Shown here: piece by piece, positions 6,570-14,277 of the stretch
Layout of the letters: every line of letters begins with the position of its first letter
Position numbering within the stretch: position 1 is the stretch's first letter
NCBI GenBank assembly: GCA_934278005.1
Contig: CAKQWG010000071.1
Span: forward strand, 1-16,335
DNA from: an uncultured Pirellulaceae bacterium
GTDB taxonomy: Bacteria; Planctomycetota; Planctomycetia; Pirellulales; Pirellulaceae
Direction of reading: 5' to 3'
DNA: 16,335 nt
Notes under the pieces: model-generated
Database searches by the model: none
Told to the model about the DNA's origin: nothing
Seen by the model: only the letters and a program-made list of their open reading frames with translations
Program-made: the position numbers and the translations under genes

Positions 6570-6848
6570 TAATAACGCCGAACCGTAGTAGGCCGCAGCG
6601 CATGAGGTTACCATGCTAGGGCGAGGCACGCTGGAGCACCACCCCGCCCGCCCGCCAACCGTCAGTCGCGGCCTGCGCAGGTGAAGGCACTTCACAGCAC
6701 TCCACTTGTCTGCTGCAAAGCATTCGGTCCATTTCAACTAGGGATGTTATTGTTGAGCAAGTTCTTACTTTCTTCCGAGCAGCAGCGAAATTCACCGCGC
6801 AAGCCAGTACCAAGAGCCTGGCTACGTTGACAAAGCTTCGCTCCCAGC

Positions 6849-6880
6849 GGCGAGTCACGCGCGCGGCGAGTTACACGCGC
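6849..6880. repeat. 16-bp tandem duplication, 14/16 identical
   Basis: GGCGAGTCACGCGCGC (6849-6864) is directly followed by GGCGAGTTACACGCGC (6865-6880). The two differences are both transitions (C/T and G/A). It lies 3' of the ligase-like gene. Confidence 0.75.
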
Positions 6881-6902
6881 CGTCGGAGTCAACCAACTGC
6901 CG

Positions 6903-8321
6903 CTACAACTGGAGCGACCACGTGTGCACCGGCTGACTGGACTGCTGGCGAGCCTCGTAGAGAGCCAGCAGGTGATGTACGTCCCCGTCACAAGCAGCCA
7001 GCATCTGTCTCTGCCATGCGGCTCCATTCTGGCGCGTCTCCAACCGGCCGCGCAGAATTTCACCCGCCGAGGCGATCTGTTCGGGAGCCGCGCCGAGTTC
7101 GGCCAGCGCATCGAGCACACGTGGCAAGAGCGAGGCCTGGATCAGCTCAACTACCGCATGCTTGCGGCCGTCGAGCCAGACCACATCCGCATCCAAACCC
7201 ACCTTAGCAGCCGCATAAAAATTTTCACTCACACGAGCAAACTCTAGCTGCGACTCGACAGGCTGTGGTAGGCAAGCCAAATAATGCACGAGTCCTAAGT
7301 AAAAATGCAAATCGGCAAACAGGTCGCTCAGGGTTGGACTGGCTGATAGGGGCCGATGCTCGATGCGCAGGTGAGGCTGGCCGTTGGATTCAAAACCGAT
7401 CAGCGGACGATTCCAATTCCAGACCGTGCCGCCATGCATTCGCACATGGGGCATGCGGGCCGGCGCTTCTTCAATCGGCACCGGTAGCAGCGCCTCGTGG
7501 TATGTCCAGTTGTCATCGAACAATTCCATCAGCGATCGTTCAAGATATCGACGCCCGAAGGACACCCGCGGGATCGGGCCCGCCGTATCGACTGCCTGCT
7601 CAAACACGGCAATGCGGGTGTCGTCCCACAAGCGATGCCCAAATAGCACGGGCGCGTTGGCAGCCATGGCAACGGTAAAGGCAGATGCGAGCAGCGAAGC
7701 ATTGTAGTAACGCGTCGCAACGGCCTGTGGAACTTTCAGGTGGAACTGCACAGAGGTCGCCGCTGACTCGAGCATAACATCGCCACTGGTTACGCGCAGC
7801 GAATCGGTACCATCGATCTCTAGCGACACGGGATTGCCTTGCCGCAAGCGGGCTACCTGCCGATTAATTGCGGCGAAACGCTTCAACGGGGACATGTTGT
7901 GAGGCCCCAGCATCGCTTCGGTAACAGTTGGCAAAATACCGACAGAGACGATGCGATGGCCCAGAGTGTTGGCTACTTGCTCGCACTGCTGCCACGTGGT
8001 GCCTAGTTCCGCTCGCATATCGGCCAAGCCGCTGCCGCTGATGTACTGTGGCGATACATTAAATTCGAAATTGAACTTGGCCAACTCCGGTACGACTGTG
8101 CAACGGTCTAAAGTCGTCAAGAAGAGTGTGTTATCTGGTACCGGCAGACCATTTCGGTCGACCAGCCAAGCTTCCAACTCCAAGCCACACTGCAGGCTGT
8201 CGTCGCAGAACTTATTGCCCGCGAACCAGCTTCGCAAAAGCTCCATTTCTGCCCGCATACGCTCGCGAAAGTTTGCCTGGTCGGCGGCCGTGAAATGTTC
8301 CGTGGCTATCTCTGATCCCAT
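6903..8321 (-). CDS. Glutamate-cysteine ligase-like carboxylate-amine ligase (GCS2/YbdK type)
   Basis: This 472-residue protein belongs to the ATP-dependent carboxylate-amine ligase family that includes YbdK and bacterial GCS2 enzymes. Expected motifs are present: GLELEAWLVD (residues 46-55, metal and glutamate acids), ELAKFNFEFNVSP (79-91), the TSVQFHLKV strand (189-197), MHGGTVWNWNRPLIGF (295-310) and LRIEHRPLSASPT (318-330). Such enzymes join the gamma-carboxylate of glutamate to an amine, classically cysteine. It is about 100 residues longer than YbdK, mainly at the C terminus, so the amine substrate may differ. The start ATG has AGGAA eight bases upstream (8330-8334). It is the last gene of a nine-gene minus-strand run, 21 bases after the pterin synthase gene. 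No glutathione synthetase is beside it. Confidence 0.8.
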   Translation of the reverse strand: MGSEIATEHFTAADQANFRERMRAEMELLRSWFAGNKFCDDSLQCGLELEAWLVDRNGLPVPDNTLFLTTLDRCTVVPELAKFNFEFNVSPQYISGSGLADMRAELGTTWQQCEQVANTLGHRIVSVGILPTVTEAMLGPHNMSPLKRFAAINRQVARLRQGNPVSLEIDGTDSLRVTSGDVMLESAATSVQFHLKVPQAVATRYYNASLLASAFTVAMAANAPVLFGHRLWDDTRIAVFEQAVDTAGPIPRVSFGRRYLERSLMELFDDNWTYHEALLPVPIEEAPARMPHVRMHGGTVWNWNRPLIGFESNGQPHLRIEHRPLSASPTLSDLFADLHFYLGLVHYLACLPQPVESQLEFARVSENFYAAAKVGLDADVVWLDGRKHAVVELIQASLLPRVLDALAELGAAPEQIASAGEILRGRLETRQNGAAWQRQMLAACDGDVHHLLALYEARQQSSQPVHTWSLQL

Positions 8322-8342
8322 TCACTGCGTTCCTAAAACTTC

Positions 8343-8768
8343 TCAAACACTCGCTTCCGCATAGGCTTCATCTGTCTCCCAAATGCGCACGCGCAATGCC
8401 CTCGCACCGGTGCCTTCGAGGACATGTGGGCACATCTCTTCAAGCAAATAACGAGCCATATTTTCAGCCGTGGGATTGTACGGCATTTTGAATAGCCGGC
8501 AGGGCTGCACGGCCTGCAGCGCATTGATCGCATTCTGGTCCTGTTCAAACACCAGAAAGCTGTGGTCCCAGTGCTCATCGATCCATCCTTTAGTGCGCGC
8601 CTTGAGGTCCGCAAAGTCCAGCACGCGCCCAACAGCATCCACCGCATCACCGGTGACGTGAATTTCCGCTACATAGTTATGTCCGTGAAAATGCTCGCAC
8701 TTGCCGCCATGGCCAAACAGCCGATGGCCAGCGCAGAATTTAATTCGACGCATAATAGTCAAACTCAT
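8343..8768 (-). CDS. queD: 6-pyruvoyl-tetrahydropterin synthase / QueD-family 6-carboxytetrahydropterin synthase
   Basis: This 141-residue protein shows the tunnelling-fold PTPS pattern. Zinc ligands are H15 (CAGHRL), H28 and H30 (HFHGHNY). The catalytic cysteine is C24 (GKCEH). The Asp-His pair is D68/H69 (HWDHSF). PTAENMARYL (99-108) and the pterin-anchoring glutamate E131 (WETDEAYAEA) follow. QueD converts dihydroneopterin triphosphate to 6-carboxytetrahydropterin, the second step toward queuosine and other 7-deazapurines, in the cytoplasm. The symbol is a family-level call: QueE and QueC are not in the window, and a sepiapterin- or PTP-forming relative is possible. AAGGA lies about ten bases before the ATG. 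The gene begins 14 bases after the MazG stop, so the ribosome site overlaps that stop. Confidence 0.83.
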   Translation of the reverse strand: MSLTIMRRIKFCAGHRLFGHGGKCEHFHGHNYVAEIHVTGDAVDAVGRVLDFADLKARTKGWIDEHWDHSFLVFEQDQNAINALQAVQPCRLFKMPYNPTAENMARYLLEEMCPHVLEGTGARALRVRIWETDEAYAEASV

Positions 8769-8782
8769 GGCTGGGTCATTCC

Positions 8783-9136
8783 TTAATCGAGTTTAGGATT
8801 AGTGCGATGCCGCCTGGCGTCGCGTTGGGTCTTTTTTTTTAGATTGAGCTGCAGGGCCTGAGTCAGATCTACGCCTGTTTGATTTGCTAAACAGAGCAGC
8901 GCGAAAAGCACGTCCGCCATTTCATCGCCAAGCTCCGGCGCAGCCTCGCCGGCTTTGAAACTCTGCTCGCCGTAAGTTCGTGAAATCACCCGCGACAATT
9001 CACCGACCTCTTCCATCAATTGCGCCAGATTCGTCAGTTCGGAAAAGTAGCGCACACCAAATTCGCGAATCCACTGGTCGACCTGCTGTTGGGCCTGCGC
9101 GATGGTCAGCGCGTCGCTCTGTTCGATGCTAGCCAT
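8783..9136 (-). CDS. MazG-family nucleotide pyrophosphohydrolase, YpjD-like
   Basis: This 117-residue protein has the MazG helix-bundle pattern: LMEEVGELSRV with metal acids E42, E43 and E46, then ELGDEMADVLFALLCLAN with E72 and D75. The spacing and the FGVRYFSELTNLAQL lead-in resemble the short YpjD-type enzymes. The expected reaction is hydrolysis of a (d)NTP, often a non-canonical one, to the monophosphate and pyrophosphate. A longer open frame reaches 9202, but the ATG at 9136 is preferred because it gives the normal family N terminus. It overlaps the upstream gene's TAG by 8 bases (GATGGCTAG arrangement), which suggests translational coupling. Basic residues fill the C terminus. Confidence 0.8.
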   Translation of the reverse strand: MASIEQSDALTIAQAQQQVDQWIREFGVRYFSELTNLAQLMEEVGELSRVISRTYGEQSFKAGEAAPELGDEMADVLFALLCLANQTGVDLTQALQLNLKKKTQRDARRHRTNPKLD

Positions 9137-10043
9137 CGGCCAAGTCTTTAAGTTGCTTGAGGTAACTCGGAATAACCTCGAGCGGGTCCTGCTTGGCCTC
9201 ATACTCTAGGGCTACCCAGCCGCTATAGTTAGCCTGACGCAGTATCTGCAAAACGCGTTCAAGATCGGTCGGCTGAGCAACTCCGCCCACACGCACTTCA
9301 ACCTTAACCTGCGCATTGACTGCGTACGGAGCGATCATTTCCAACTCCCGGTAGGGATCATCGCCCGCGTTGAAATTCCCTGAGTCAAAATTCACACCGA
9401 AGGCCGGCGATTGCACTTGCCGGACAATCTCGAGCAAGCCTTCAGCCCGCGCTGTGACTCCACCGTGATTCTCCAGAGCTAACATGACTCCCTGCGCGGC
9501 CGCGTCGTGGCAGGCCAATTGGCAAATCTGTGCGCAGCGCGCAAGAGTCCGGCTAGTCTCCTCGCCAGCGATCGGTTGTCCGGCAAAAATCCGAATTGCC
9601 GGTGCGCCCAATTTTGCGTAATGGCCAATCCACTGCCGCGTGTGCGCCAAATCCCTGGCTACCGCCAGCGGATCGACTTGAGTGAAATCATTGCGTATGG
9701 CACCGCCGGAAATGCTAACGCCGCGCAGGTGGCAGTGCCGCTTCAGTTTGAGCAGATAGGCATCGTCGACATTGTCCGGAAAATAATACGAAGTCAACTC
9801 AGCCCCGCTCAAACCGTGCTCATGACAAAAATCTACAAACTCAAACAGATCCATTTCGGCAGCTTGGCCGCCGGCAGGTTGCAGATATTTTCGCAGCGAA
9901 TAAGCCGCCAAACTGATTCGCAGATGGCTCGGCGCCGGCCTCTCGATGGGCTCGATAGCGCGAACGACTGGCGCTGCGAATACTCCCGAAGTCGTCAACC
10001 CTGCCAAGCATCCAGTTCGCAGAAAGCTTCTACGCTTCATCAT
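9129..10043 (-). CDS. Tat-exported TIM-barrel sugar isomerase/epimerase-like protein
   Basis: This 304-residue protein begins MMKRRSFLRTG, a twin-arginine signal (RRSFLR) followed by a hydrophobic stretch and cleavage near VVRA. The mature part is an AP-endonuclease-2/xylose-isomerase-like barrel: LRISLAAYSLRKYL, GLSGAELTSYYFP, GAPAIRIFAG, MLALENHGG (metal Glu), FGVNFDSGNF (metal Asp) and a C-terminal VALEYEAK (Glu). These fit the metal ligands of sugar-phosphate isomerases/epimerases, acting outside the cytoplasm here. The substrate is unknown; planctomycetes carry many such proteins. The open frame extends upstream to 10115, but that would bury the Tat motif. The ATGs at 10043 or 10040 are better, although no Shine-Dalgarno is visible. 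It follows the Fe-S gene by 31 bases. Confidence 0.8.
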   Translation of the reverse strand: MMKRRSFLRTGCLAGLTTSGVFAAPVVRAIEPIERPAPSHLRISLAAYSLRKYLQPAGGQAAEMDLFEFVDFCHEHGLSGAELTSYYFPDNVDDAYLLKLKRHCHLRGVSISGGAIRNDFTQVDPLAVARDLAHTRQWIGHYAKLGAPAIRIFAGQPIAGEETSRTLARCAQICQLACHDAAAQGVMLALENHGGVTARAEGLLEIVRQVQSPAFGVNFDSGNFNAGDDPYRELEMIAPYAVNAQVKVEVRVGGVAQPTDLERVLQILRQANYSGWVALEYEAKQDPLEVIPSYLKQLKDLADG

Positions 10044-10074: not shown

Positions 10075-11172
10075 TTATAGATCGAGTGCATCGAGTTGGT
10101 CGATGAGCGCGTCAAGATTGTCCGCCTGCCCAGACTCGCCAGCGGGTTTGAGCAGCCGTTGGCTCAGCCCAGTCGATGCTCCAACCGCTTGGCGTCCCGC
10201 TAAACGCAACTGCTCATCGCGCTCGCGAATGGCCGCCGTCGCCGCATCTTCACCATCGTCTGGCGCACCAAACAGTTTGGAAAGATCGATTTTCAGACCG
10301 CCGGCATCTACCGGAGCACCTGCGATGGCTGGGGATTTATGTTGCGGGAACATGATCGCGTTCTCTGGACACACGCGACTGCAAGCTGGACATCCCTTGC
10401 GGCAATTGTCAGCCTGCTCAACGACGATCGTCTCCACGGAATCAATTCCATACACGCCGAATAGGCAGAAGTCGATACATTCCATGCAGTTGGTGCATCG
10501 GCTGAAATCGATTACAGGATACCAGCGGCGAGCCGGATGTTCTTCGATCGTGGCCACGCTGGCGTTGCCGAAGAGCGTCGCCGTGGTCGATTCATCGGCG
10601 TGGCGAAGCGACGCCGCGCTGCCGGGCGCACCGATGTACGTATCGTTGGTGGGTTGCTCGAATTGCCCCAGCATTTCTAATGTAAGTGGAGTGGAGGCCT
10701 GCTGGGCAGTCCGCGTGGCTCGCGACAATATTGCGATCCGCTGAATCTCATCCACGAAAGCGCTGGCTGCAGTACTCGCTCGAAAGTCGAGTGTATAAAT
10801 CGTGCGATCGGGCCGAGGCTGGGCGAGCGTCACCCGGTCCTCGTGCGGCTGGCGATCCTCGGCCGCGTCGTCTTCCTCGGATTCCTGCTGTAGTTCAACC
10901 GTGCCGAACTGCCCGCACACGCCATTGCGGTCGAGTATCCAGTGTGCCGCGCGCGGGAACATCCAGCTGACCAGCACAATATCGCCGTACAGTTGCCGTA
11001 GCGCCTGATAGGTCTCTCCGTCTTTGGCCAAATCGTACAGATGAGGCACGCAAATAACCCGAACTCCCGGCAGCTCTCCAGCCGCTGCCGCGATGGCCTG
11101 TTCGAGTTCACGCTTCTCGGGATTGCGGCTTTGTCCCGCGGATACTACCACGTTGATGTGGCCACTATGCAT
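10075..11172 (-). CDS. Protein with two [4Fe-4S] motifs and an unrecognised N-terminal domain
   Basis: This 365-residue protein has four parts. Residues 5-95 are an alpha/beta domain (INVVVSAGQSRNPEK ... GDIVLVSWMFPRAAHWIL) that I do not recognise firmly. Residues 96-215 are acidic and low complexity with a short folded patch. Residues 216-275 are a ferredoxin-like domain: C226, C229, C232, C236 (CxxCxxCxxxC) and C257, C261, C264, C268 (CxxxCxxCxxxCP), enough for two [4Fe-4S] clusters. Residues 280-365 are a flexible tail ending in an Asp/Leu-rich helix. The likely role is electron transfer for a partner, probably the upstream radical SAM and lipoyl-carrier proteins. The ATG overlaps the TAG of the GcvH-like gene by 8 bases (ATGCATAG), implying coupling. 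There is no signal peptide, so it is cytoplasmic. Confidence 0.75.
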   Translation of the reverse strand: MHSGHINVVVSAGQSRNPEKRELEQAIAAAAGELPGVRVICVPHLYDLAKDGETYQALRQLYGDIVLVSWMFPRAAHWILDRNGVCGQFGTVELQQESEEDDAAEDRQPHEDRVTLAQPRPDRTIYTLDFRASTAASAFVDEIQRIAILSRATRTAQQASTPLTLEMLGQFEQPTNDTYIGAPGSAASLRHADESTTATLFGNASVATIEEHPARRWYPVIDFSRCTNCMECIDFCLFGVYGIDSVETIVVEQADNCRKGCPACSRVCPENAIMFPQHKSPAIAGAPVDAGGLKIDLSKLFGAPDDGEDAATAAIRERDEQLRLAGRQAVGASTGLSQRLLKPAGESGQADNLDALIDQLDALDL

Positions 11173-11683
11173 TGACTTGTCCTTTTATCGTACGCTGGGC
11201 GACTTCCCAAGCCGACGTGAGATGCTGGATGTACTGCTGCGGATTCAGCAGCAGCGGCGCGCCGCTGTGTTTGGCCGCGCCGGTCGGCTCTGGCGACTCG
11301 GCTGAGTCAGCATCTGCCCATTCGATCGCCATTTCGAACATCCATCCCGCTCCGTACTTATCGAGATTAATTCCGGTCGGATCTTGCAGCAGTTCTTCAT
11401 TTAGTTCAGTGACAAGTCCCGGCAGCGGCGCGTACAGACTGCTCTCTGCCTTCTTGCTTTCAATCGATCCGATTTCTTGTTTGGCTGCGAGCGCCATCTG
11501 AGGTTCGATAATTAGGTCTAGAAAATAGACATCTTGCAGCAACCGCACGGCATAGGCAGACAGACCAAACCGCACGGCACCGTCGCTCTGCGTCTGCGCC
11601 CACATATGATTCTTTGCGTACATGCGGTCGACGGGAAACTCCGCCGAGTGCTCTCCCATCATGAACACCAGTGCGGCGCTCAT
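11165..11683 (-). CDS. GcvH-like lipoyl-carrier protein
   Basis: This 172-residue protein matches glycine cleavage H protein across residues 20-120: YAKNHMWAQ, VRFGLSAYAVRLLQDVYFLDL, IGSIESKKAESSLYAPLPG, and DPTGINLDKYGAGWMFEM. The lipoyl-attachment lysine is K78, in the position of Lys in the H-protein ESxKA motif. It has about 18 extra N-terminal residues and a roughly 50-residue C-terminal extension (LLLNPQQYIQHLTSAWEVAQ) that H proteins lack. No P- or T-protein gene is in the window. The gene starts inside the stop of the radical SAM gene (ATGA, 4-base overlap). I therefore infer a lipoyl carrier serving this operon rather than glycine cleavage, as has been shown for the LbpA carriers of the sHdr sulfur-oxidation system. 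An ordinary gcvH displaced from its partners is the alternative. Confidence 0.8.
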   Translation of the reverse strand: MSAALVFMMGEHSAEFPVDRMYAKNHMWAQTQSDGAVRFGLSAYAVRLLQDVYFLDLIIEPQMALAAKQEIGSIESKKAESSLYAPLPGLVTELNEELLQDPTGINLDKYGAGWMFEMAIEWADADSAESPEPTGAAKHSGAPLLLNPQQYIQHLTSAWEVAQRTIKGQVNA

Positions 11684-12984
11684 GTATAGCGAACTCCTCG
11701 AAACTGAGGCTCAAAGAACATTGGCAGCAATCCATCGGCACGCAGCAGCCCTTGCATCGTCAGTTCGATACGGTTGCCCTCGCGCACCACGTAACCCTCG
11801 CTGACATATTGGTCCCACACCTCTTGGAACTCGGTCCAAATATCCGTTCCAAACTTGTCTTGAAAATAATCGAGCTCTAGATAGCCGCGTTTGAGCAGCA
11901 GGATCACTTCGCGAATCATAGCCTGAGTAGGCGACGGGGTGAAAGCGCGTCCTAGCGGCAAGCGTCCCTCGTTGACCGCCGTGATATACTGATGCCATTC
12001 GGGAAGGTTTTGATAGTGCACGCCAGAGACGTGCCCGAAGGAAGCGATGCCGGTTGCCAACAAGTCCGAGCCCTGCCATAAATTATCGCGATAGCTGAAG
12101 GAGATCTTGTTGGGATCCTTAATCATCGTGTAGGCAGAATTCTGGGCATAACCCGCTTCGGCAAAGGCCTCGAAGGCGTACTGCACCCAATCCCGCTTTG
12201 TCTGCCAATCGGCCACCGGCGACTGCTGAGCCTGTTTGAGAATGCCCTCCGAATAAACGGTATTAAAAGGCAGTTCCATCTGGTAAATCGTCACGCTCTC
12301 CGGTGAAAGCTCCAGCGTCTTGGCCACGTTGATTTTCCAGTTCTCCCAAGTTTCTCCCACCATGCCTGAGATCAGGTCTATATTGACGTTCGGAAAGTCA
12401 GCGGCCACGATCCACTCCCAAGCATTAAAAACCTCTTTGGACAAGTGAGCTCGGCCATTCTCTTCTAAGATGGCATCGCTAAAGTTCTCTATGCCTAGGC
12501 TTAAGCGCGTCACGCCAAGCTGTTTGAGGGTATGCACTTTGGTCTCACTCAGAGTTCCCGGTTCGCACTCAAAGGTCACCTCTTCCGCTTTGTCCCAACT
12601 GATATTGGCGCGCAGGCGGTCAACTAGGCTAGTCAACTGTTTGGGGGACAGAAAGCTGGGCGTGCCACCGCCGAAATAGACAAATCGGAACGGCCGCTGC
12701 CCCATCACTGCTTGCTGGCTGACTAGCTCAATCTCGCGGCTGAGGGCTTCGACGTAGGTCTCGATCTCGCTCGCGTTCTTGCCAGTGAAGACTTTAAAAT
12801 AGCAGAACTTACAACGCTTGCGGCAGAACGGGATGTGCAAATACAGTCCCAACGGAACCTCGCCCGGCGGGCTATCTAGAGCCTGCTCGACCTGCGGTAG
12901 ATACTCGCGCTTCCACTGAGAAAAAGGTGGATAGTTGGAGATGAAGTAACTACCGACCTGCGTCGTGGTTGCATCAACTGACAT
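11680..12984 (-). CDS. HemN/HemW-like radical SAM protein
   Basis: This 434-residue protein from the ATG at 12984 has the HemN architecture. The radical SAM cluster motif is C54-x3-C58-x2-C61 (HIPFCRKRCKFCYF), followed by the FGGGTPS SAM-binding loop (about 105-107) and barrel strands such as FECEPGTL, LSLGIENF and NIDLISGMVGET. The C-terminal HemN winged domain (about 345-425) includes SGVHYQNLPEWHQYI and IELTMQGLLRADGL. True HemN has a fourth Cys two residues after the third; here it is Phe, as in HemW-like proteins, so coproporphyrinogen oxidation should not be assumed. An in-frame TTG at 13047 would add 21 residues but has no ribosome site; the ATG has only a weak GGA. It overlaps the GcvH-like gene by 4 bases. 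Its substrate is unknown. Confidence 0.8.
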   Translation of the reverse strand: MSVDATTTQVGSYFISNYPPFSQWKREYLPQVEQALDSPPGEVPLGLYLHIPFCRKRCKFCYFKVFTGKNASEIETYVEALSREIELVSQQAVMGQRPFRFVYFGGGTPSFLSPKQLTSLVDRLRANISWDKAEEVTFECEPGTLSETKVHTLKQLGVTRLSLGIENFSDAILEENGRAHLSKEVFNAWEWIVAADFPNVNIDLISGMVGETWENWKINVAKTLELSPESVTIYQMELPFNTVYSEGILKQAQQSPVADWQTKRDWVQYAFEAFAEAGYAQNSAYTMIKDPNKISFSYRDNLWQGSDLLATGIASFGHVSGVHYQNLPEWHQYITAVNEGRLPLGRAFTPSPTQAMIREVILLLKRGYLELDYFQDKFGTDIWTEFQEVWDQYVSEGYVVREGNRIELTMQGLLRADGLLPMFFEPQFRGVRYT

Positions 12985-13053: not shown

Positions 13054-14277
13054 TTATTTTTGGCCAAAACAGAAGATCGTGCCTCGGTCATTGGCCACTA
13101 CTAGTCTACCATCCGCGACAGCCGGCGCACCCAAAAAGCCCGGCTTGACTTCGAACATCCAGCCGGGTTGTCCGGTTTTCAAGTCGAATGTGGAGATGCG
13201 TCCATCGGCGGCAGCCACCACTACCTGCTGTCCGGCAATGACGGGCGATGAATCGCAGCGCTTGCGCAGCGTCTGCTCCCAGGCCACCTTGCCGGTCTGG
13301 ACGTCTATCGCAAATACGCGCTTGTTGCGACTGGCGGCTACCGCCAATCCATCCGCTACCGCGACTGAATTTTTGAACTCGCTAGCCAAGTTTGGATCAT
13401 TAAATCGCCACTGCAATTCAAATTCGGGAAGTCTGTAACAGAAAATCTCGCCTGCGTAGGTCGGAACAAAAACTTGATTACCAAGCACGCTGGGAGTACT
13501 TCCCGTGGGCGAATCTATGGGCAGAAGATCGCCGACTCGCTGTCCGCTTTCAACGTCGATGACATGCAAGTTGGAATCGCAGCCACCCAGAAACGTCTTA
13601 TTGCCCGCAAGAGTAGGGCCGCACTGCAGCTGATCGCCTGTTTCGTACTTCCACACTAACGATCCATCGCTGAATTTAACACAATACAAATTGCCATTCT
13701 GAGAGGTGAACAGCACGTTGCCTTGGAAGAAATTCGGATTGCCATCGATCTCCATTTCGGTCGCATAGCTCCACTTCTCGCCTCCGGTAGTAGCATCGAG
13801 CGCGTGCAGCGTGCCGTCGTAGTCTCCGACAAACAACCAGCCGTCTCGATAGGCCGGAGAAACTACAAAACCGGTATCCATGTCGACTCGCCAGAGCTCC
13901 TCACCCTTGGCTAGGTCGATAGCTACGATGCGCCCATCCTGATCGGCGGCGAACACCTTGCCGTCGGCGATGATCGGACCCGCATCAAAGCCCAGCCCGC
14001 CCAGGCTGACCTCCCACAATAGCTCCATGGTCTCGGGCAGCGCTTGAGCGGTAGCGCCCGTGCCGGCTACGTCGCCGCGGCCCAGTGGCCACTCGCCGGC
14101 ACGCGCCTGAGCGGTCCAGGCCGCACCGACAAGCCCGCTGATCAGCAGCAGCGCGCACGGTAGTACCTGCGCGCACGGTAGCACCTGCGCGCACGGTAGC
14201 ACCTGCGCGCACGGCTGTAGCCGCTGCCGAAGCCAGAAGTGCTTCCACTGCCGTTGGGCCAACTGCTGAAGCGTCAT
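13054..14277 (-). CDS. Secreted PQQ-type beta-propeller protein (BamB/quinoprotein-like repeats)
   Basis: This 407-residue protein's residues 85-405 hold about seven blades with the signature '...GKVFAADQDGRIVAIDLAKGEELWR', '...GWLFVGDYDGTLHALDATTGGEKW' and so on, ending IFCFGQK. Such propellers occur in BamB-like scaffolds and in quinoprotein dehydrogenases. The dehydrogenase active-site residues are not apparent, so a binding role is likelier. Residues 1-60 form an odd signal peptide: a basic start, then a repeated Pro-Cys-Ala-Gln-Val-Leu unit, then the hydrophobic core LLLISGLVGAAW and cleavage near AQARA. GAGGT lies seven bases before the ATG. It is 66 bases downstream of the peptidase gene and precedes the radical SAM gene by 69 bases. 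Confidence 0.85.
   Translation of the reverse strand: MTLQQLAQRQWKHFWLRQRLQPCAQVLPCAQVLPCAQVLPCALLLISGLVGAAWTAQARAGEWPLGRGDVAGTGATAQALPETMELLWEVSLGGLGFDAGPIIADGKVFAADQDGRIVAIDLAKGEELWRVDMDTGFVVSPAYRDGWLFVGDYDGTLHALDATTGGEKWSYATEMEIDGNPNFFQGNVLFTSQNGNLYCVKFSDGSLVWKYETGDQLQCGPTLAGNKTFLGGCDSNLHVIDVESGQRVGDLLPIDSPTGSTPSVLGNQVFVPTYAGEIFCYRLPEFELQWRFNDPNLASEFKNSVAVADGLAVAASRNKRVFAIDVQTGKVAWEQTLRKRCDSSPVIAGQQVVVAAADGRISTFDLKTGQPGWMFEVKPGFLGAPAVADGRLVVANDRGTIFCFGQK
14153..14214 (-). repeat. 18-bp tandem repeat inside the signal-peptide coding region
   Basis: Three 18-bp units lie at 14153-14170, 14171-14188 and 14189-14206 (plus strand GCGCACGGTAGCACCTGC, the first with one C/T change). The first 8 bases of a fourth follow at 14207-14214. 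Because 18 is a multiple of three, each unit adds the hexapeptide Pro-Cys-Ala-Gln-Val-Leu in frame to the propeller protein's signal region. Confidence 0.95.

Follow-up and report, generated by a model that had tools for sequence, protein, structure and literature searches.

We describe a run of three overlapping genes on a stretch of DNA from an uncultured Pirellulaceae bacterium (assembly GCA_934278005.1, contig CAKQWG010000071.1). The whole stretch of 16,335 nt is called the window throughout. All three genes lie on the minus strand. The first (11680..12984, 434 aa from its ATG) encodes a HemN-like radical S-adenosylmethionine (SAM) protein, here rSAM, recognized by Pfam and NCBIfam models and by its PDB relatives 1olt and 9p2u. 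The second (11165..11683, 172 aa) encodes a lipoyl carrier similar to GcvH, here GcvHL, assigned by its GCV_H domain, clade and fold. The third (10075..11172, 365 aa) encodes an iron-sulfur (Fe-S) protein, as judged from its Fer4 domains, an alignment (A1) and a structural model. A first-pass annotation, made from the letters alone, had reported overlaps of 4 and 8 nt between these genes, and both its coordinates and its letters were confirmed when the junctions were read directly: the stop/start overlap ATGA (11680..11683, minus strand) joins rSAM to GcvHL, and ATGCATAG (11165..11172, minus strand) joins GcvHL to the Fe-S gene. The same annotation regarded the trio as a candidate for an undescribed redox or cofactor system of its own.

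GcvHL scores 77.4 bits with Pfam GCV_H (cut-off 22.2), and its model (predicted local distance difference test score, pLDDT, 88.7) has the H-protein fold by Foldseek (E 3.8e-11 to 3hgb). The predicted lipoyl lysine K78 (codon at 11450..11452, minus strand) aligns with that of H-proteins. Together with E75 and G89 it is invariant in 48 of 48 rows of an alignment that holds the window protein, 27 relatives among the matches listed and 20 sequences from the compared loci. GcvHL therefore shares with GcvH (PF01597) both the fold and the lipoyl-lysine motif (E at -3, G at +11), but differs from it at the C-terminus, which reaches about 10 residues past the canonical H-protein end. The C-terminal helix seen in the model (residues 148-171; 11171..11242, minus strand) carries a motif conserved across the 48 rows: W159 in 46, Q163 in 47, and K167, G168 and Q169 in 46 each. 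Counted from the column of W114, 34-58 residues follow in 28 GcvHL rows, against 27-31 in 28 of 29 GcvH rows and 60 in the remaining one.

Because of this resemblance, GcvHL might be thought a spare H-protein of glycine cleavage, and its relatives do carry the source name 'glycine cleavage system H protein'. The fold and the intact K78 fit this idea. Nevertheless, GcvHL stays under the cut-offs of the GcvH models TIGR00527 (76.7 vs 115.85) and PRK01202 (91.2 vs 117), as it does under those of the GcvH-related NF045810 (39.9 vs 150) and the not_gcvH model TIGR03077 (26.6 vs 144.05). In a tree, 28 GcvHL rows form a group apart from 29 canonical GcvH rows, among them that of E. coli; the split has 99/95 support and recurs in 99% of bootstrap trees, although L145 and L147 branch close to the midpoint root and L144 sits on a very long branch. 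The separate branch that the first-pass annotation had named as support is thus seen. Neither gcvT nor gcvP, whose presence would have spoken for a glycine cleavage role, was found at E 1e-6 in 85 GcvHL stretches (above 75 bits, the window included and the most divergent excluded; some are short and some are copies of one place), whereas gcvP lies near canonical gcvH in 13 of 20 stretches of up to 9 kb in a comparison set. Eight genomes in which the Fe-S gene stands apart were checked whole; all eight hold GcvHL elsewhere in the genome, accompanied by a second, canonical-looking GcvH of 31-41% identity. A spare H-protein is therefore scarcely credible to us.

The rSAM protein matches Pfam Radical_SAM with 76.7 bits and HemN_C with 23.7 bits, just below the cut-off of 24. 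Its nearest curated models are HutW, STM4012 and HemN (194, 192 and 174 bits), all of them below cut-offs of 325-400; for the HemN model TIGR00538 the values are 174.5 vs 324.95. The CX3CX2C motif (C54, C58, C61; 12802..12825, minus strand) aligns with that of HemN and is invariant in 16/16 rows of alignment A7, which comprises 16 rows out of 41 clustered. A fourth cysteine is counted as a criterion for HemN, and in the alignment its place is occupied by Phe63. Residues Y48, Y103, R160 and D203 align with the SAM-II residues Y34, Y96, R153 and D196 of NocN, which a passage of a preprint places around the second SAM (PMC12871812); NocN Ser225 corresponds to Thr232. Y48, six residues before the CX3CX2C motif, R160 and D203 are present in all 16 rows and Y103 in 15, with an X in the last one; at this position NocN has Tyr and HemN has His. 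Our reading from these alignments is a putative two-SAM enzyme, with an active site closer to that of class C methylases than to that of HemN. Two facts pull the other way: the two-SAM residues are partly common to HemN, and so are necessary but not sufficient for a class C methylase, and over the whole protein HemN (1olt) surpasses NocN (9p2u) as PDB match, 112.8 vs 84.5 bits.

The Fe-S protein, with 34.3 bits to Pfam Fer4_7 (cut-off 27), consists of an N-terminal alpha/beta domain (about residues 1-160), two [4Fe-4S] motifs (226-268) and a conserved tail. Its eight cluster cysteines (C226, C229, C232, C236, C257, C261, C264 and C268; 10369..10497, minus strand) are invariant in 24/24 rows of A1, that is, the window and 23 of 120 relatives among the matches listed (7474 matched). 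The AlphaFold2 model is confident for about residues 1-160 only. Since no Foldseek match to this domain reached E 0.001 (the best were PnpB, 0.032, and WrbA, 0.041), no claim on its fold is made. The HemN-like radical SAM protein, the intact lipoyl lysine and the eight cysteines named in the first-pass annotation are all upheld by Pfam domains and invariant residues.

Gene order was compared in loci taken from a scan of one genome per species, in which the Fe-S protein had 393 relatives; the loci of the 80 best matches were retained. Titles of 77 of these loci name Planctomycetota or a planctomycete, and L003, L041 and L068 say only 'bacterium'. In 43 of the 80, rSAM and GcvHL share a strand and are at most 400 nt apart; in 38, GcvHL and the Fe-S gene are at most 900 nt apart; 36 loci combine both arrangements. 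Blastopirellula marina DSM 3645 (L057) is one organism in which the trio is contiguous. Neither rSAM nor GcvHL was seen in 35 loci within the stretch examined, which is short in some. The trio is thus conserved in many planctomycetes, which the first-pass annotation had named as support: it is adjacent in 36 of the 80 closest loci, and GcvHL is present in 38 of 199 genomes of the phylum sample described below. Among the 43 loci with rSAM and GcvHL adjacent, the facing gene ends are fully aligned on both sides in 28, of which 26 keep the 4-nt overlap in the same register (register, not letters, was compared), so that the overlap exceeds chance. The distance from GcvHL to the Fe-S gene in 38 loci ranges from an 11-nt overlap up to 731 nt, with an overlap of about 8 nt in several.

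Around the trio, two groups of genes recur. Block A comprises an EhpF-like adenylating enzyme, an aldehyde dehydrogenase (ALDH), an Fe-alcohol dehydrogenase (Fe-ADH), a PQQ-type propeller and the HemN-like rSAM. Block B comprises GcvHL, the Fe-S protein, a second radical SAM protein (rSAM2), a class II cyclase-like protein and a fusion of DUF116 with a prenyl diphosphate synthase, to which some genomes add a CobW-type GTPase, IscS or a small protein, c31. In L071, with the genes called by tblastn, both blocks follow each other on one strand: EhpF, ALDH, Fe-ADH, rSAM, GcvHL, Fe-S, rSAM2, cyclase, fusion, c31, a flavin adenine dinucleotide (FAD) enzyme and an SSF-type symporter. L039 has the same order plus the PQQ propeller, its stretch ending after c31, and L072 and L077 have it with rSAM2 inverted. 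In some Pirellulales-type loci both blocks are one gene run with the trio at the junction. Block A occurs alone, as EhpF, ALDH, Fe-ADH and rSAM, in L151-L155 (from G017, G085, G204, G206 and G079), with varying extras: PQQ, an FAD enzyme of geranylgeranyl-reductase/halogenase type, a GT4 glycosyltransferase, a 4HBT thioesterase and an SSF symporter. Block B has another order in L145: GcvHL, CobW, IscS, rSAM2, a 112-aa gene, Fe-S, fusion, a toroid protein and the cyclase.

The cyclase-like protein carries DxDD in all 20 members read (19 DxDDT, one DxDDS). It shares this acid motif with squalene-hopene cyclase (SHC) and other class II cyclases, and its best PDB match is the squalene-hopene cyclase 1gsz (E 1e-44). 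It differs from them in that two members scanned reach only 98-125 bits with two SHC/squalene-cyclase models of NCBIfam (cut-offs 323 and 431), and in being encoded beside the DUF116-prenyl synthase. In the latter, which joins DUF116 to a polyprenyl synthase, the first DDxxD motif is present in 19/19 members and the second Asp-rich motif has the plain DDxxD form in only 6/19. For DUF116, a published passage describes predicted metal-binding cysteines and gives no function (PMC5898192). According to another passage, terpene-cyclase and polyprenyl-synthase genes were predicted by antiSMASH as common to three planctomycete strains (PMC4982196); these may or may not be the genes described here. 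For rSAM2, the NirJ, AhbD and pseudo-SAM models give 60-70 bits. Taken with the HutW, STM4012 and HemN models as nearest to rSAM, this might suggest a tetrapyrrole branch, in which the two radical SAM proteins and an electron carrier modify heme or siroheme. Yet the scores are far under the cut-offs (325-400 for rSAM, 500-525 for rSAM2), the fourth Cys of HemN is absent, and Y103 fits the Tyr of NocN and not the His of HemN. Moreover, the annotated recurrent neighbours include a prenyl synthase and a DxDD cyclase-like protein instead of any tetrapyrrole gene. We consider such a branch quite improbable.

EhpF activates an acid for reduction in the griseoluteic acid pathway. The EhpF-like protein of block A matches it with E 9.9e-42 (3hgu); like EhpF it is a short ANL-type adenylating enzyme and it adjoins an ALDH-type gene, but its other neighbours differ. 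LuxC and LuxE were considered as the nearest kin of the ALDH and the adenylating enzyme but were not confirmed; PDB searches returned EhpF and generic ALDHs. The small protein c31 is met repeatedly downstream of either block (L071:14949-15488, L164:5375-5884 and loci of block A, among them L152, L156-L158, L162 and L169). Its conserved R83, PLG 122-124 and YGR 163-165 resemble chorismate lyases, and judging from these residues it is possibly chorismate-lyase-like. Matches to chorismate lyase are weak (E 0.021 for one of 5 members, 2nwi at E 0.1, UbiC at an hhalign probability of 26.5%), and in a scan of 46 genomes PF01947 was above its cut-off in none.

Co-occurrence was counted genome-wide in a phylum sample of 199 evenly drawn Planctomycetota genomes, some of them incomplete, for seven proteins. 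The Fe-S set was collected with a single query sequence at a limit of E 1e-10, its weaker matches being mainly to the ferredoxin part, and the cyclase-like set at a limit of E 1e-60. All other sets come from profile searches of the 199 genomes cut at score gaps: at least 115.7 bits for GcvHL (next score 100.2), 237.5 for the fusion (next 167; G036, G083 and G106 are fragments), 441 for rSAM2 (next 254.5), 414 for EhpF-like (next 176) and 495.6 for HemN-like rSAM (next 167.5 after a second tier). This second tier, at 405-433 bits, consists of rSAM paralogues in five genomes already counted (G001:C110:22913-24211, and G064, G072, G166 and G196).

By these limits the Fe-S protein is present in 49 genomes, GcvHL in 38, the fusion in 50, rSAM2 in 41, the cyclase-like protein in 46, the EhpF-like protein in 45 and HemN-like rSAM in 44. 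The Fe-S set contains every genome with GcvHL (38), rSAM2 (41) or the cyclase-like protein (46), and it shares 48 genomes with the fusion. All 38 GcvHL genomes have the fusion, 37 the cyclase-like protein and 36 rSAM2. All 44 genomes with HemN-like rSAM, for their part, also have the EhpF-like protein. The combination of GcvHL, Fe-S protein, fusion and both radical SAM proteins is found in 34 genomes, and none of these five in 140 of the 199.

Is the trio, then, a redox or cofactor unit in itself, with GcvHL presenting an intermediate to the HemN-like rSAM, or reducing it for that enzyme, and with the Fe-S protein as the source of electrons? Radical SAM enzymes require electrons, the 4-nt coupling of rSAM to GcvHL is kept in 26/28 loci, and in 36 of 38 genomes no more than 3 kb separates GcvHL from the Fe-S gene. 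Only the last two genes form a core pair, though. Both HemN-like rSAM and GcvHL occur in 35 genomes of the even sample, yet only 3 of them have the two genes within 3 kb of each other, and 5 within 10 kb. It goes with the EhpF-like protein throughout and occurs in 9 genomes that lack both GcvHL and Fe-S, while the pair tracks the terpenoid-type genes. What the first-pass annotation saw is a real trio; as a self-contained redox or cofactor system it is rather unlikely, and the junction of a biosynthetic locus describes it better, since rSAM tracks the EhpF-like gene and the pair tracks the terpenoid-type block.

By a slight balance of probability, we therefore favour the trio as the junction of two gene blocks of a larger, apparently undescribed planctomycete biosynthetic locus, with GcvHL as a dedicated lipoyl carrier that acts with its Fe-S partner in a (mero)terpenoid-type pathway. 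Apart from the rarity of rSAM near GcvHL, several observations weigh against this. Of the 9 rSAM genomes without the pair, 8 are also without the fusion and one (G095) has it; block A therefore needs no GcvHL there. Eleven Fe-S genomes are without GcvHL, although their matches, mostly via the ferredoxin part, could be other proteins. Just 20 of 44 genomes have the EhpF-like gene no more than 10 kb from rSAM. In G001, the sample genome nearest to the window (Fe-S 77% identical), the trio is contiguous, but cyclase and fusion are on contig 94, rSAM2 on contig 63 and EhpF-ALDH on contig 180, apart from it. Finally, the counts are not phylogenetically independent: shared descent among related genomes inflates every one of them, for which reason p-values of co-occurrence are not taken as evidence, and some genomes are incomplete.

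If this were the whole story, the neighbours would be functionally unrelated old genes kept together by shared descent in Planctomycetota. Related genomes overstate linkage, and the separate contigs of G001 and the loose EhpF-like/rSAM spacing agree with such an explanation. On the other hand, gene order varies (L071, L064, L145) and the genes still stay close: in 31 of 37 genomes the cyclase and the fusion are no more than 3 kb apart, and the fusion is within 3 kb of the Fe-S gene in 24 of 38 and within 10 kb in 31. The 140 genomes that hold none of the five proteins speak against it as well. We find mere shared descent unlikely.

Lipoic acid serves 2-oxoacid dehydrogenases, glycine cleavage and sHdr sulfur oxidation. 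The last of these offers another GcvH-like lipoyl carrier outside glycine cleavage, LbpA, which is described as essential in a passage of PMC6067878. GcvHL and its Fe-S partner might by comparison handle sulfur, with IscS as its source, and an IscS-like gene is indeed present in 6 of 120 loci, L145 among them. IscS is thus limited to a subset, and no sHdr subunit or LipS1/LipS2-sLpl maturation gene was recognized among annotated neighbours, for which no dedicated search was run. The canonical lipoyl synthase LipA, in contrast, is present in 36 of 38 GcvHL genomes (it was not found in G044 and G194), and the neighbours are of terpenoid type. A sulfur system of the LbpA kind is accordingly very improbable. 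From the distribution of LipA it also follows that lipoylation of GcvHL is possible.

Returning to the two-block locus, we propose the following course of events. Block B would probably make and modify a cyclised prenyl lipid. Block A would probably activate a carboxylic acid, methylate or alkylate it by two-SAM radical chemistry and reduce it to aldehyde and alcohol. GcvHL would most likely be the lipoylated swinging-arm protein of the pathway, with the Fe-S protein as its first partner. There are two ways in which the arm might work. Firstly, its dithiol could relay electrons from the Fe-S protein, a possible electron donor, to a pathway enzyme. Secondly, its thiol could hold an acyl intermediate, as NosJ does for NosN. 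In nosiheptide biosynthesis NosI, NosJ and NosN provide adenylation, a carrier and a HemN-like radical SAM enzyme; the acid is methylated by NosN while it is attached to the carrier (PMC5585349). This is the closest worked precedent, with comparable roles for adenylating enzyme, carrier and class C two-SAM enzyme, and by analogy the acid could sit on the dihydrolipoyl arm. There are differences too: NosJ is a phosphopantetheinyl carrier and the present one is of lipoyl type, no relationship of the carriers by sequence being claimed, and the planctomycete locus adds the EhpF-like enzyme, dehydrogenases and the prenyl block. Because GcvHL goes with the Fe-S protein and block B more closely than with block A, a dithiol relay that draws on the Fe-S protein is just as conceivable, and we favour, over either chemistry, the broader proposal that a prenyl-lipid pathway has a dedicated lipoyl arm. 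A fuller scheme can be imagined, which we offer tentatively and with some doubt: a (mero)terpenoid or cyclised-lipid pathway would run on the lipoylated H-protein, the EhpF-like enzyme or rSAM loading or altering the substrate on the dihydrolipoyl arm, the two-[4Fe-4S] protein keeping the arm reduced, and the DUF116-prenyl synthase and class II cyclase building the rings.

The gene set exists and is conserved, and it is of greater interest than the trio by itself, whatever function it may prove to have. Its larger form is common to many planctomycetes and apparently undescribed. Searches of open-access literature brought up no description of it, as judged by titles, abstract starts and passages and with subscription papers outside the scope, which agrees with the statement of the first-pass annotation that no named system has these genes. 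If our assumptions are true, then the biosynthesis of a lipid or natural product would employ lipoic acid as its thiol carrier, which would be a new use, and a client tied to prenyl-lipid genes would widen its roles. A function would be assigned to GcvH-like genes now named glycine cleavage system H protein, and DUF116 fused to prenyl synthases would acquire its first context. The product of the locus is probably an unusual ring-shaped lipid, so that the genes point to an unknown lipid in many planctomycetes.

Some neighbouring features complete the description. Just upstream of the rSAM gene, the window encodes a PQQ-type beta-propeller protein (13054..14277, minus strand; Pfam PQQ_2), likely in the same transcription unit; PQQ followed by rSAM on one strand at no more than 500 nt occurs 40 times in 120 loci, some of which may repeat a place. 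Translation of the N-terminus of this open reading frame shows short tandem peptide repeats (PCAQVL, window 14149-14214), and other ones (LADAP) are present at the window start (3-62). Downstream of the trio (6903-10043, minus strand), there are genes of AP-endonuclease-2-type TIM barrel, MazG, PTPS/QueD and GCS2 types. Their order is kept in L001, and the other 79 loci gave a single weak AP2 match (L018) to this run. In L154, a gene for a 23S rRNA intervening-sequence-type protein (6775-7182) is placed between the EhpF-like and ALDH genes. In G176:C1:14806-17640, a weaker match to a HemN/HemW-type radical SAM protein and a match to a stand-alone prenyl diphosphate synthase are about 1 kb apart, and similar arrangements are seen in G057, G078, G096, G114, G130, G146, G161 and G203.

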